Made by a program: the position numbers and the translations under genes. Shown here in pieces: positions 26,020 through 29,524 of a stretch of 35,865 nucleotides of DNA. The stretch spans positions 1 to 35,865 of the forward strand of contig DVMF01000050.1 of NCBI GenBank assembly GCA_018715125.1, read 5' to 3'. Below the pieces are notes generated by a model. That model searched no databases. It was not told the origin of the DNA and worked only from the letters and a program-made list of their open reading frames with translations. Position 1 is the stretch's first letter; the number at the start of each line of letters is the position of its first letter. Source of the stretch: Candidatus Coprousia avicola (GTDB taxonomy: Bacteria > Actinomycetota > Coriobacteriia > Coriobacteriales > Coriobacteriaceae).

Positions 26020-26048
26020 CGGACGGACGGCGCCCCGTGTGCTATAGT
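26020..26048 (+). promoter_or_regulatory. Promoter of the trp-type leader and ECF operon
   Basis: TATAGT at 26043-26048 is preceded by TGC, forming an extended -10. CGGACG lies 17 bases further upstream as a weak -35. Transcription would start near 26055, giving a leader of about 50 bases before the leader-peptide start codon. Confidence 0.6.
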
Positions 26049-26106
26049 GCCCTCAACGTACAGACGGCGGCAGCGGCCGCCCGCACCTCGAAAGGAGCCA
26101 CCGGAT

Positions 26107-26175
26107 ATGTTGAACGTCAACCTCGCCCTCAACAACTGGTGGTGGCGTGATGTGAACTCGGCCGGTCAACGGTGA
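26107..26175 (+). CDS. Tryptophan leader peptide (22 aa) with three consecutive Trp codons
   Basis: A short reading frame begins with ATG at 26107 and ends with TGA at 26173-26175. It has a strong ribosome binding site, AAAGGAG, nine bases upstream. Residues 9-14 read NNWWWR, with three TGG codons in a row at 26137-26145. Trp is rare and encoded by one codon, so this is the hallmark of trp operon leader peptides, including those of actinobacteria with WWW. The peptide itself has no expected function. Translation speed through the Trp codons senses charged tRNA-Trp. The frame is followed by a terminator and then by ECF transporter genes, not by biosynthetic trp genes. Confidence 0.88.
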   Translation: MLNVNLALNNWWWRDVNSAGQR

Positions 26176-26235
26176 GCCCTTCGCGCCTATAGATTTGCGC
26201 AGATACGGCCCCCGGGTTGACCGGGGGCCGTTTTT
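26135..26235 (+). promoter_or_regulatory. Trp attenuator: competing antiterminator and terminator structures
   Basis: CCGGTCAAC (26162-26170) is the exact reverse complement of GTTGACCGG (26216-26224), which forms the loop and right arm of the terminator. The nine-pair antiterminator and the terminator therefore exclude each other. The first segment overlaps the end of the leader frame. A ribosome stalled at the Trp codons (26137-26145) leaves it free to form the antiterminator. A ribosome that reaches the stop codon (26173) covers it, so the terminator forms. A weaker pairing of ACTGG (26135-26139) with CCGGT (26162-26166) could serve as the 1:2 pause hairpin. Confidence 0.8.
26206..26235 (+). 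terminator. Attenuator terminator hairpin
   Basis: A perfect ten-pair stem, CGGCCCCCGG/CCGGGGGCCG, with loop GTTGA is followed by TTTTT. It lies 30 bases after the leader-peptide stop codon and about 106 bases before the first ECF gene, so it must be bypassed for the transporter to be made. Confidence 0.92.
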
Positions 26236-26341
26236 GGTTTTCGCCCCCGCGACCCCACCGGCCCCGTTCGCATCACGCGCCTCCACCCCGCTCGTCGAGC
26301 AGCCCCTCCCACACACCCCACACCCCGAAAGGTTGATTACC

Positions 26342-26926
26342 ATGACTGAGAACACCACCCCGCGCACCACCACCGCCCAGCCCCGCACCGTCGCCTCCGT
26401 CGACCGCGGCAAACTCGACATCAAGGCCCTCGTCCTGCTCGCCGTGCTCCTCGCCGCTGGCTTCATCCTGAACTTCACGCTCGGCCGCGCCATCGGCGCC
26501 GTCTCCGGCGGCATGATCAGCCCCGAGTTCATCATCTCCGCCTTCTGCCTCACCATCCTCATCGTCCGTCCCAACCTGCTGCAGGCGCTCGTCATCGGCC
26601 TCGTCTCCGCCGCCGTCATCCAGCTCACCACGACGCTGCCCGGCGCCGACTTTGTGGCCGAGGGCATCGCCGCCGTGCTGATGGCCGCCATCGTCAACGC
26701 CGGCATGAAGACGGGCGCTAAGGGCGTCGTGCCTGTGGTGGGCACGTTTGTCTGCACGTTTGTCTCCGGCTTCATCTTTATGGTCATCCGCATGGCGCTC
26801 ATGCAGTTCGACATGGCCATCGCCGCCGCCATGCTCCCCGTCGTCGCGCTCACCGCCGTCTTCAACGCCATCCTCGTGGGCGCGCTCTACCTGCCCATCA
26901 AGCACGCGCTCAAGCTCGCCGACTAG
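26342..26926 (+). CDS. ECF transporter S component, TrpP-like, predicted tryptophan-specific
   Basis: 194 residues from ATG 26342. A weak AAAGG lies upstream, and the longer frame to 26195 crosses the attenuator and is not coding. After a polar Thr/Pro-rich N-terminus of about 30 residues, there are some six hydrophobic segments. The first two segments and the loop between them, GFILNFTLGRAIG then GGMISPEFIISAFCLTILI, followed by VIGLVSAAVIQLTTTLPG, resemble the layout of Bacillus TrpP as I remember it. The next genes encode the ATPase pair and EcfT, so this is the substrate-binding subunit of a complete ECF importer. The Trp leader peptide ahead of it points to tryptophan as substrate. Confidence 0.82.
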   Translation: MTENTTPRTTTAQPRTVASVDRGKLDIKALVLLAVLLAAGFILNFTLGRAIGAVSGGMISPEFIISAFCLTILIVRPNLLQALVIGLVSAAVIQLTTTLPGADFVAEGIAAVLMAAIVNAGMKTGAKGVVPVVGTFVCTFVSGFIFMVIRMALMQFDMAIAAAMLPVVALTAVFNAILVGALYLPIKHALKLAD

Positions 26927-26961
26927 TACCGCCAGCGACCCCGACCCCTCGAGAGGACCCC

Positions 26962-28785
26962 ATGCAGCCCACCGAACAGCCGATCATCGAGATGCGCGAC
27001 GTCGCGTTCTCCTATGGGGAGGACGCCGACCGGGCGCTCGACGGCATCACGCTCACCATCGCCCCCGGCTCGTTCACGGGCATCATCGGCCCCTCGGGCG
27101 CCGGCAAGTCGACGCTCGCCGCCGTGCTCGCCGGCGCCATCCCGCACCACTTCACCGGGCAGCTCTTTGGCGCGACGCTCGTCGAGGGGCAGGACACCTG
27201 CGAGCTCACGCTCACCGATATCTCGCGCATCGTGGGCTCGGTCAACCAGGACATCGACGCGCAGATGGTCGCCTCGGTGGTGGAGGACGAGCTGCTCTTC
27301 GGCCTCGAGAACTTCGGCGTGGCGCACGAGCGCATCGACGAGACCATCACGGCGGCGCTCGATGCTGTGGGCATCGCCGACCTCCGCGACCGCGAAATCG
27401 CCACGCTCTCCGGCGGCCAGAAGCAGAAGGTCGCCATCGCGGCGATACTCGCGCTCGCCCCGCGCGTGCTCGTGCTCGACGAGCCCACGGCCGCCCTCGA
27501 CCCCGTGAGCTCGCGCATGGTCTTCGACGTGCTGCGCGACCTCAACCGCGAGCGCGGCATCACGGTTATCGTCATCGAGCAGAAGGTGGCGCTCCTCTCG
27601 GAGTTCTGCGACCGGCTCCTCGTCATGAACGAGGGGCGCGTGGCGCTCGAGGGCACGCCGCACGAGGTCTTCGCGCACGCCGCCGAGCTCCGCGCCATCG
27701 GCGTCGACAGCCCGCGCGTGGCGCGCATCTCGAACAGCCTCGCCCGGCGCGGCCTCTATCCGGCGGGGACCCCGTGTCTCAACGTGGCCGAGGCGGCATC
27801 GCTCATCGCCCGCACCGTGGGCGCCGGCGCGCCTCAGGCGGGCGCGTCCGGCTCGGCCCCCGCAACCGCGCGGCGCACCGGCTCCCCCCACGCCCCCGCG
27901 CCGCGCCCGCATGCGGAGGGGGCGGAGCCCGTGGTCCGCTTCTCGGGCGTGACGTTCGCCTACCCGGGCGGCGGGGCCTCGGTCAACAACCTCGACCTCG
28001 CCGTCTACCCCGGCGAGCTCGTGGGCATCGTCGGCCAGAACGGCGCCGGCAAGACGACGGCCACCAAGCTCGTCAACGGACTTCTGCGCCCGAGCTCGGG
28101 CAGCGTGCGCATCGCCGGCGTCGACACGCGCGACGTCCCCGTGTCCGAGATCGCGCGCCACGTGGCCACGCTCTTCCAGAATCCCGACCACCAGCTCTGC
28201 AAGAACACCGTGCGCGACGAGGTCGCCTTCGGCCTCGAGCTCCAGGGCGTCCCGCGCGCCGAGGCCGTCCGCCGCGCCGAGCGCGTCATCGAGCGCTTTG
28301 GCCTGCCGGCCGACGAGGCGCCGTTCTCGCTCTCGCGCGGGCAGCGCCAGATGGTCGCCCTCGCCTCCGTCGTGGTGACCGAGCCCGCGGTCATCGTGCT
28401 CGACGAGCCCACGAGCGGGCTCGACTACCGCGAGTGCATGACCGTCATGGAGACGGTGCGCGAGATGGCCGAGCAGGGGTCCGCCGTCATCATGGTCTGC
28501 CATGACATGGAGGTCGTCTCCGACTTTGCCGAGCGGCTCGTCGTCATGGCGGACGGCTGCATCCTCGCCCGCGGCGCCACCGCCGACGTCTTCGCCGACG
28601 CCGCGCTCATGGCGCGCGCCCGCGTAACGCCGCCGCAGGTGGTGGAGCTCTCCGCCCGGCTCGCGCACGAGGTCTCCCCCGCCTTCGCCCACGAGACCGA
28701 GGTGTCCGGCATCGTCGACACCACCGTCGCGCTCGCCGGCAGCCCCGCACCCACCGCCGATCCCGAGGAGGCCCTCCGTGCTTAA
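26962..28785 (+). CDS. Fused double ECF ATPase (EcfA-EcfA')
   Basis: 607 residues from ATG 26962 with GAGAGGA upstream. Two ABC domains are joined in one chain. Domain 1 has Walker A GPSGAGKST (43-51), signature LSGGQKQ and Walker B VLVLDEPTAALDP. Domain 2 has Walker A GQNGAGKTT, FQNPDHQLCKNTV as Q-loop, signature LSRGQRQ with Arg for the usual first Gly after Ser, and Walker B VIVLDEPTSGLD. An Ala/Pro/Gly-rich linker of about 40 residues (around 280-320) separates them. ECF ATPases are normally two proteins, so a fusion fits a dedicated transporter with its own S component and EcfT. The next gene overlaps its end by eight bases. Confidence 0.9.
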   Translation: MQPTEQPIIEMRDVAFSYGEDADRALDGITLTIAPGSFTGIIGPSGAGKSTLAAVLAGAIPHHFTGQLFGATLVEGQDTCELTLTDISRIVGSVNQDIDAQMVASVVEDELLFGLENFGVAHERIDETITAALDAVGIADLRDREIATLSGGQKQKVAIAAILALAPRVLVLDEPTAALDPVSSRMVFDVLRDLNRERGITVIVIEQKVALLSEFCDRLLVMNEGRVALEGTPHEVFAHAAELRAIGVDSPRVARISNSLARRGLYPAGTPCLNVAEAASLIARTVGAGAPQAGASGSAPATARRTGSPHAPAPRPHAEGAEPVVRFSGVTFAYPGGGASVNNLDLAVYPGELVGIVGQNGAGKTTATKLVNGLLRPSSGSVRIAGVDTRDVPVSEIARHVATLFQNPDHQLCKNTVRDEVAFGLELQGVPRAEAVRRAERVIERFGLPADEAPFSLSRGQRQMVALASVVVTEPAVIVLDEPTSGLDYRECMTVMETVREMAEQGSAVIMVCHDMEVVSDFAERLVVMADGCILARGATADVFADAALMARARVTPPQVVELSARLAHEVSPAFAHETEVSGIVDTTVALAGSPAPTADPEEALRA

Positions 28786-29524
28786 CGTCATCGACTACGT
28801 GCCCGGCGACACGATCCTCCACCGCCTGAACCCCGTCACCAAACTCGCCCTCGCCGCCTCGATCATCGCCGCGACGTTTCTTGCCGACGGCTACGCGGCG
28901 CTCATCGGCCTGCTGCTCCTGACGCTTCTGCTCGGCGCCTACGCGGGCAGCGCGAGCCGGCTCTTCTCGCTCGTGAAGGTGCTCGTACCCGTCTCCGCCC
29001 TCATGCTCGTGCTGCAGCTCGCCTTCGTGCGCCACGGCGAGGTGCTCTGGCTCTTCATCACCACCGACGGCCTTGTCTCGGGCACCAAGGCGTGCCTGCG
29101 CCTCGTGGGCGTGGCCCTGCCGCTCGTCCTCATGCTCACCGTCACCAAGACGACGGACCTCGCCAACGCCTGCGTGGAGAAGCTGCACGTCCCCTACCCC
29201 TACGCCTTCACGTTTACGACGGCGCTGCGCTTCGTGCCCGTCTTCACGCAGGAGATGAACGCCATCATGGAGGCGCAGACGGCGCGCGGCGTGGCGTTTG
29301 ACACCAAGAACCCCTTAAAGAAGCTCATGCTCATGCTGCCGGTATGCGTGCCGCTCCTCGTGACCTCGGTGGGCAAGACAGATGCGACGGCGCTCGCCGC
29401 CGAGCAGCGCGGCTTCTACCTGCGCACCCGCGCGAGCAGCTACCGGCGCTACCCCTTCTGCGCGCGCGACGCGGCCGCGGCGCTCGTCTGCGTGGCGCTC
29501 ATCGCCGGCGGCATCGCGCTGTAG
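28778..29524 (+). CDS. ECF transporter transmembrane component EcfT
   Basis: 248 residues from a GTG at 28778 that lies inside the end of the ATPase gene, with GGAGG upstream. It has about five to six membrane segments. The opening NVIDYVPGDTILHRLNPVTKL is typical of EcfT. The cytoplasmic coupling helices carry the two Ala-Arg-Gly-type motifs, EAQTARGVAF (about 166-175) and AAEQRGF (about 207-213), which bind the two ATPase domains. It links ATP hydrolysis to toppling of the S component. As the last gene of the operon it is followed by a small terminator-like hairpin. Confidence 0.9.
   Translation: MLNVIDYVPGDTILHRLNPVTKLALAASIIAATFLADGYAALIGLLLLTLLLGAYAGSASRLFSLVKVLVPVSALMLVLQLAFVRHGEVLWLFITTDGLVSGTKACLRLVGVALPLVLMLTVTKTTDLANACVEKLHVPYPYAFTFTTALRFVPVFTQEMNAIMEAQTARGVAFDTKNPLKKLMLMLPVCVPLLVTSVGKTDATALAAEQRGFYLRTRASSYRRYPFCARDAAAALVCVALIAGGIAL

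Follow-up and report, generated by a model that had tools for sequence, protein, structure and literature searches.

A classical ribosome-mediated transcription attenuator that senses charged tRNA-Trp very probably controls a Trp-specific ECF importer in Candidatus Coprousia avicola (by our estimate, a probability of roughly 0.9). The leader lies at 26020-26342 of the window, by which we mean the whole 35,865-nucleotide stretch that was analysed, upstream of the importer genes for the S component, the fused AA' ATPases and the T component (Table 1), and its recognition in a first-pass annotation is confirmed here. This reading is carried by the leader elements, their conservation and spacing, covariation in a protector stem, antiterminators of changed sequence in divergent relatives and the loss of Trp biosynthesis genes.

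Architecture of the leader

The extended -10 element, the strong ribosome binding site, the 22-codon frame with three Trp codons and the nine-pair antiterminator were all found where the first-pass annotation had placed them. Its terminator was also correctly located, with five T, although the stem comprises 11 pairs and not ten. We found one further element that it had not described, a protector (1:2) stem, the 5' strand of which falls within the Trp-Arg-Asp codons of the leader. Segment 2 lies inside the coding part directly ahead of the stop codon (26173-26175) and pairs over its nine positions with the 3' strand. The predicted arrangement thus combines what defines a ribosome-mediated amino-acid attenuator: a short frame bearing a ribosome binding site, a codon run, a terminator, an antiterminator that excludes it and a protector stem.

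Table 1. Features of the attenuator and the operon behind it, in window coordinates
Feature	Position	Strand	Evidence or detail
Extended -10 promoter element TGCTATAGT	26040..26048	+	sequence
Leader-peptide ribosome binding site AAAGGAG	26091..26097	+	sequence
Leader peptide MLNVNLALNNWWWRDVNSAGQR and stop, 22 codons, ATG at 26107	26107..26175	+	seen in 82/82 loci
Three regulatory Trp codons TGG TGG TGG	26137..26145	+	WWW in 81/82 loci
Segment 1, protector (1:2) stem 5' strand GGCGTGA	26144..26150	+	covariation
Segment 2, antiterminator 5' strand CCGGTCAAC	26162..26170	+	GGT codon 82/82; own-versus-swapped duplexes
Protector stem 3' strand TCGCGCC	26181..26187	+	covariation
Intrinsic terminator, 11-pair stem 26205-26231 and T5 tract 26231-26235	26205..26235	+	sequence
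Antiterminator 3' strand GTTGACCGG, terminator loop and first part of right arm	26216..26224	+	complementarity
S component of the ECF importer, a divergent relative of TrpP that likely binds Trp (predicted)	26342..26926	+	PF17099; S-component fold
Fused EcfA-EcfA' ATPases	26962..28785	+	two ABC_tran stretches; TIGR04520 444 bits, TIGR04521 413 bits
EcfT transmembrane component	28778..29524	+	PF02361 87.8 bits

The importer and its likely substrate

The controlled genes had been described as a complete ECF importer, and S, A, A' and T indeed stand together at 26342-29524. The EcfT gene begins within the last codons of the fused EcfAA' gene (overlap 28778-28785), which suggests translational coupling. 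The S protein, which shares 99% identity with its counterpart in Collinsella sp. An268 and so marks the genome as Collinsella-like, reaches 22.1 bits over the full TrpP profile (PF17099; cut-off 27.2), and 19 of 22 homologues match the same profile at E 0.01 or better. Several relatives exceed the cut-off (L157, 33.1 bits; L165, 36.4; L163, 45.9; L164, 49.4). Its AlphaFold model has six helices (pLDDT 76) and finds RibU and other S components as best PDB matches, with weak E-values, while a profile search of the PDB with the S alignment gave a folate S component as its best match, at E 0.81. Judged by these profile matches, the S component is likely a divergent TrpP relative and Trp its substrate, and an importer of Trp that is switched on by Trp starvation would follow a conventional logic.

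The same attenuator could instead serve an importer of indole, a Trp derivative or Trp peptides that is merely induced when Trp runs short, as might be argued from the sub-threshold TrpP score of the window's own protein, from the many substrates spanned by the S fold and from a second S gene that follows the first in some genomes. We consider this unlikely, given the TrpP matches of the homologues, the relatives above the cut-off, the T-box with a TGG specifier on the same genes and the MhsT-like nature of the alternative gene found under the leader (see below). The second S-component gene, with roughly half the score, sits right behind the first in many genomes (G242:C12:6212-7393; G222, G204, G165, G146 and others), and possibly provides another specificity on the same module.

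Conservation of the leader among relatives

Our comparison took in the 80 loci retrieved with the S protein and the genomes of the genus, among which 82 upstream regions were readable in the right orientation. All 82 carry the leader ahead of the orthologous S gene, with WWW in 81 and WW in one, and the distance from the first Trp codon to the stop is 36 nt in 81. A comparable purine-rich site precedes the leader start in related loci, and TGnTAwnnT occurs 20-110 nt 5' of it in 46 of the 82. The Gly codon within the antiterminator strand is GGT at every locus; with four Gly codons to choose from in GC-rich genomes, such constancy indicates that the RNA is under selection. An intrinsic terminator was present at all 94 loci analysed, 64 of them distinct.

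The first-pass annotation had suggested a search for TGG-rich leaders elsewhere in Coriobacteriia, and this search was productive: of 298 class genomes, 90 contain the leader+GGTC+ACCGG pattern, compared with 3 for the reversed control pattern. Together with the 82 conserved loci, the rarity of the control shows that the leader is not a chance arrangement. A covariance model of the leader found matches in 116 of 296 class genomes. Two of the weakest matches of the RNA model (L217 and L219) resemble a tRNA gene beginning GGGTGGTGGCGCAG, so matches at E about 1e-4 to 1e-3 were left uncounted. Pattern matches in G071, G081 and G036 do not fit the leader and were set aside as chance.

A few loci depart from the common form. 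In L172 (G160), WAWR replaces WWWR; no other Trp run was found to be interrupted. L161 (G158) has a TrpP-like S gene and the same type of terminator without a WWW frame, and its relative L218 (G192) retains a two-Trp leader. L039, from Slackia isoflavoniconvertens, has a leader and an S gene that resemble those of Collinsella (71% identity); such a leader in a genome of that name suggests horizontal transfer.

The peptide itself varies at its start in both sequence and length (20-49 codons), whereas part of its C-terminal end is conserved. This conservation could recall TnaC, in which case the peptide would sense free Trp and stall at its end when Trp is abundant, and would not respond to a shortage of charged tRNA-Trp. 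The conserved end, however, coincides exactly with the stretch where the RNA must pair (the invariant GGT), and L166 and the leaders of SNF genes differ at the peptide end while keeping the RNA architecture. Three consecutive Trp codons are moreover a signature of starvation, and induction of an importer by abundant Trp is not expected, so that a TnaC-like mode seems extremely unlikely. The terminated leader RNA or peptide might in addition act in trans on other genes, as is reported for peTrpL of Sinorhizobium (PMC7298713). Only the existence of such a product here favours this idea; the free variation of the first half of the peptide makes it less likely that the peptide has a function of its own, and we regard trans action as very unlikely.

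Pairing evidence

The protector stem covaries. Over 48 sequences, its pairs are 90.5% formed, and three pairs show changes on both strands. Of its cells, 91.4% are paired, compared with 17-57% for slid versions, and 18 are doubly changed against 2.6 expected from shuffles. The covariation check that had been proposed for this region was therefore positive for the protector, while the antiterminator core is mostly conserved within the order and yielded weak covariation only. The near invariance of CGGTC:GACCG accounts for this: within the order, loci form 7.77 of 9 antiterminator pairs with their own strands and 7.56 with swapped ones. For 21 diverged loci, the mean duplex energy was -25.2 kcal/mol for own and -23.0 for swapped strands (0 of 5000 permutations), a difference to which kinship of the loci contributes.

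The clearest cases come from divergent relatives, in which aligned strands indicate an antiterminator that is kept with changed sequence. L166 has ACTCTGA:TCAGAGT, L159 and L160 combine CGGTCAACTC with GAGTTGGTCG or GAGTTGATCG (GAGTTG(G/A)TCG), and L157 has an altered helix with a bulge. The leader frame and the 26162/26216 complementarity, on whose persistence in relatives the first-pass annotation had staked its proposal, are thus both conserved at the level of sequence.

Proposed mechanism and folding calculations

When Trp is ample, a translating ribosome would reach the stop codon at 26173 and cover segment 2 (26162-26170), so that the terminator stem (26205-26231) could form and transcription would end near 26235. 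When Trp is scarce, the ribosome would stall on 26137-26145, break the protector stem (26144-26150/26181-26187) and leave segment 2 free to pair with the emerging 26216-26224 before the terminator is complete. Polymerase would then continue into the S-AA'-T genes and Trp import would rise; read-through past the terminator would accordingly depend on Trp.

Folding of the region, another check that had been suggested, gave 26050-26245 a greater stability than any of 200 shuffled versions (z -3.2). When ribosomes were represented by masked stretches, equilibrium folding did not reveal the switch: with the ribosome stalled on Trp, the terminator had a probability of 0.98 in the window and fell below 0.5 at just 5 of 64 loci. 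This calculation has a similar outcome for the E. coli trp attenuator (terminator 0.83), so the equilibrium result does not discriminate. On partial transcripts, the antiterminator was favoured with a stalled ribosome, and less so when the protector stem could form. When the window was folded co-transcriptionally, at the point where 6 nt of the right arm had emerged, the terminator strands paired with the leader at 0.46 with a stalled ribosome and at 0.00 without one. Because the terminator wins at equilibrium and the antiterminator on partial transcripts, we infer that the switch must be kinetic.

The preference for the terminator in almost every equilibrium fold might also suggest a constitutive terminator, or the end of the upstream gene, next to a chance frame that regulates nothing. 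A leader of fixed geometry at 82 of 82 loci, the covariation of the protector stem and the rarity of the reversed control pattern leave this a negligible probability, and the kinetic attenuator remains our preferred reading.

Loss of Trp biosynthesis

Genes for trpA and IGPS are missing from 56 and 59, respectively, of 60 genomes of the family, including that of the window, while both searches were positive in all 14 control genomes. These absences point to Trp auxotrophy, and most gut bacteria of the Collinsella group appear unable to make Trp, to judge from their gene content. The earlier remark that the leader acts on transport "instead of biosynthesis" is literally correct here, as this genome lacks trpA and IGPS. 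The attenuator has been retained where no pathway remains to attenuate. Gut bacteria mostly lacking Trp biosynthesis genes must obtain Trp from host and diet, and an unnamed transporter of common gut bacteria hereby gains a likely substrate and a control logic.

Relation to known systems

The leader resembles E. coli trpL in its order of Trp codons followed by Arg (WWR), stop, protector, antiterminator and terminator. While trpL controls trpE-A biosynthesis, the leader of Coriobacteriia precedes an importer, and its antiterminator 5' strand lies in the last codons of the peptide, where its partner is formed by the loop and right arm of the terminator. In Actinobacteria, Trp attenuators have been described for trp operons and trpS (Seliverstov 2005, PMC1262725). 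Those of Corynebacterium and Streptomyces, from the same phylum, share a double or triple UGG and a GC-rich terminator with a U tract, whereas they serve biosynthesis operons and trpS only, with no transporter mentioned, and have a conserved triple GGCC-GC-GGCC in place of GGTC-GACC (PMC1262725).

Other systems share the type of target. TrpP (YhaG) of Bacillus subtilis is a TrpP-family transporter with Trp-responsive control at the RNA level, exerted by TRAP, a Trp-binding protein that represses translation, and not by a leader peptide (PMC13170310, PMC11255114). The bmrBCD genes of B. subtilis encode an ABC transporter under ribosome-mediated attenuation, although this is an exporter that responds to antibiotics and lacks an amino-acid codon run (PMC4191407). 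The first-pass annotation had considered attenuation of an ECF transporter little described. The literature searched, which covered few subscription journals, gave no case of a Trp leader on a Trp importer or of its exchange with a T-box; transporters under leader-peptide control are already known, which makes the novelty smaller than that annotation judged. Classical in mechanism, the attenuator would here serve an apparently new target class, Trp uptake in auxotrophs.

Exchange with a T-box and a second transporter type

A T-box precedes the homologous S gene in six sister genomes of another family, and its specifier reads TGG in each of them; L163 and L168 represent this version. These T-boxes score 60-71 bits (E 5e-11 to 1e-13), under the Rfam gathering score of 93. 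A Trp T-box thus precedes TrpP-like ECF transporters of sister lineages with the same specifier, and differs from the leader in that it senses uncharged tRNA directly. In the tree, the leader-bearing L157 is nested within the T-box clade, which makes a replacement of one type of control by the other probable.

The same leader also stands ahead of an SNF symporter in six genomes of one genus (L154-L156 and L213-L215; Pfam was run on two). For one of the SNF proteins, a sequence comparison with the PDB gave 4us3 as the closest entry, which is MhsT, a protein known to bind Trp. The SNF family also includes the Trp transporter TnaT, and in the B. cereus group an SNF gene is under the control of a Trp T-box (PMC2494555). 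One genome (G072) contains both the leader-ECF and the leader-SNF arrangement, 1.6 kb apart.

We lean towards regarding the Trp leader of Coriobacteriales as a portable starvation switch dedicated to uptake, which alternates with the Trp T-box ahead of one and the same ECF transporter and has also come to precede an unrelated, MhsT-like SNF transporter, in lineages mostly without Trp synthesis. If so, orthologous transporter pairs under leader-peptide and T-box control would offer a natural side-by-side comparison of two ways to sense tRNA-Trp.

The window gave no match to any Rfam model, the T-box (RF00230) included, at gathering scores, a threshold below which the sister-lineage T-boxes also fall. 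Elsewhere in its genome, there are three sub-threshold T-box matches (G000:C60:6519-6667, C42:17248-17354 and C32:78653-78918), which suggests that T-box control is likely available there and is unused for this importer.
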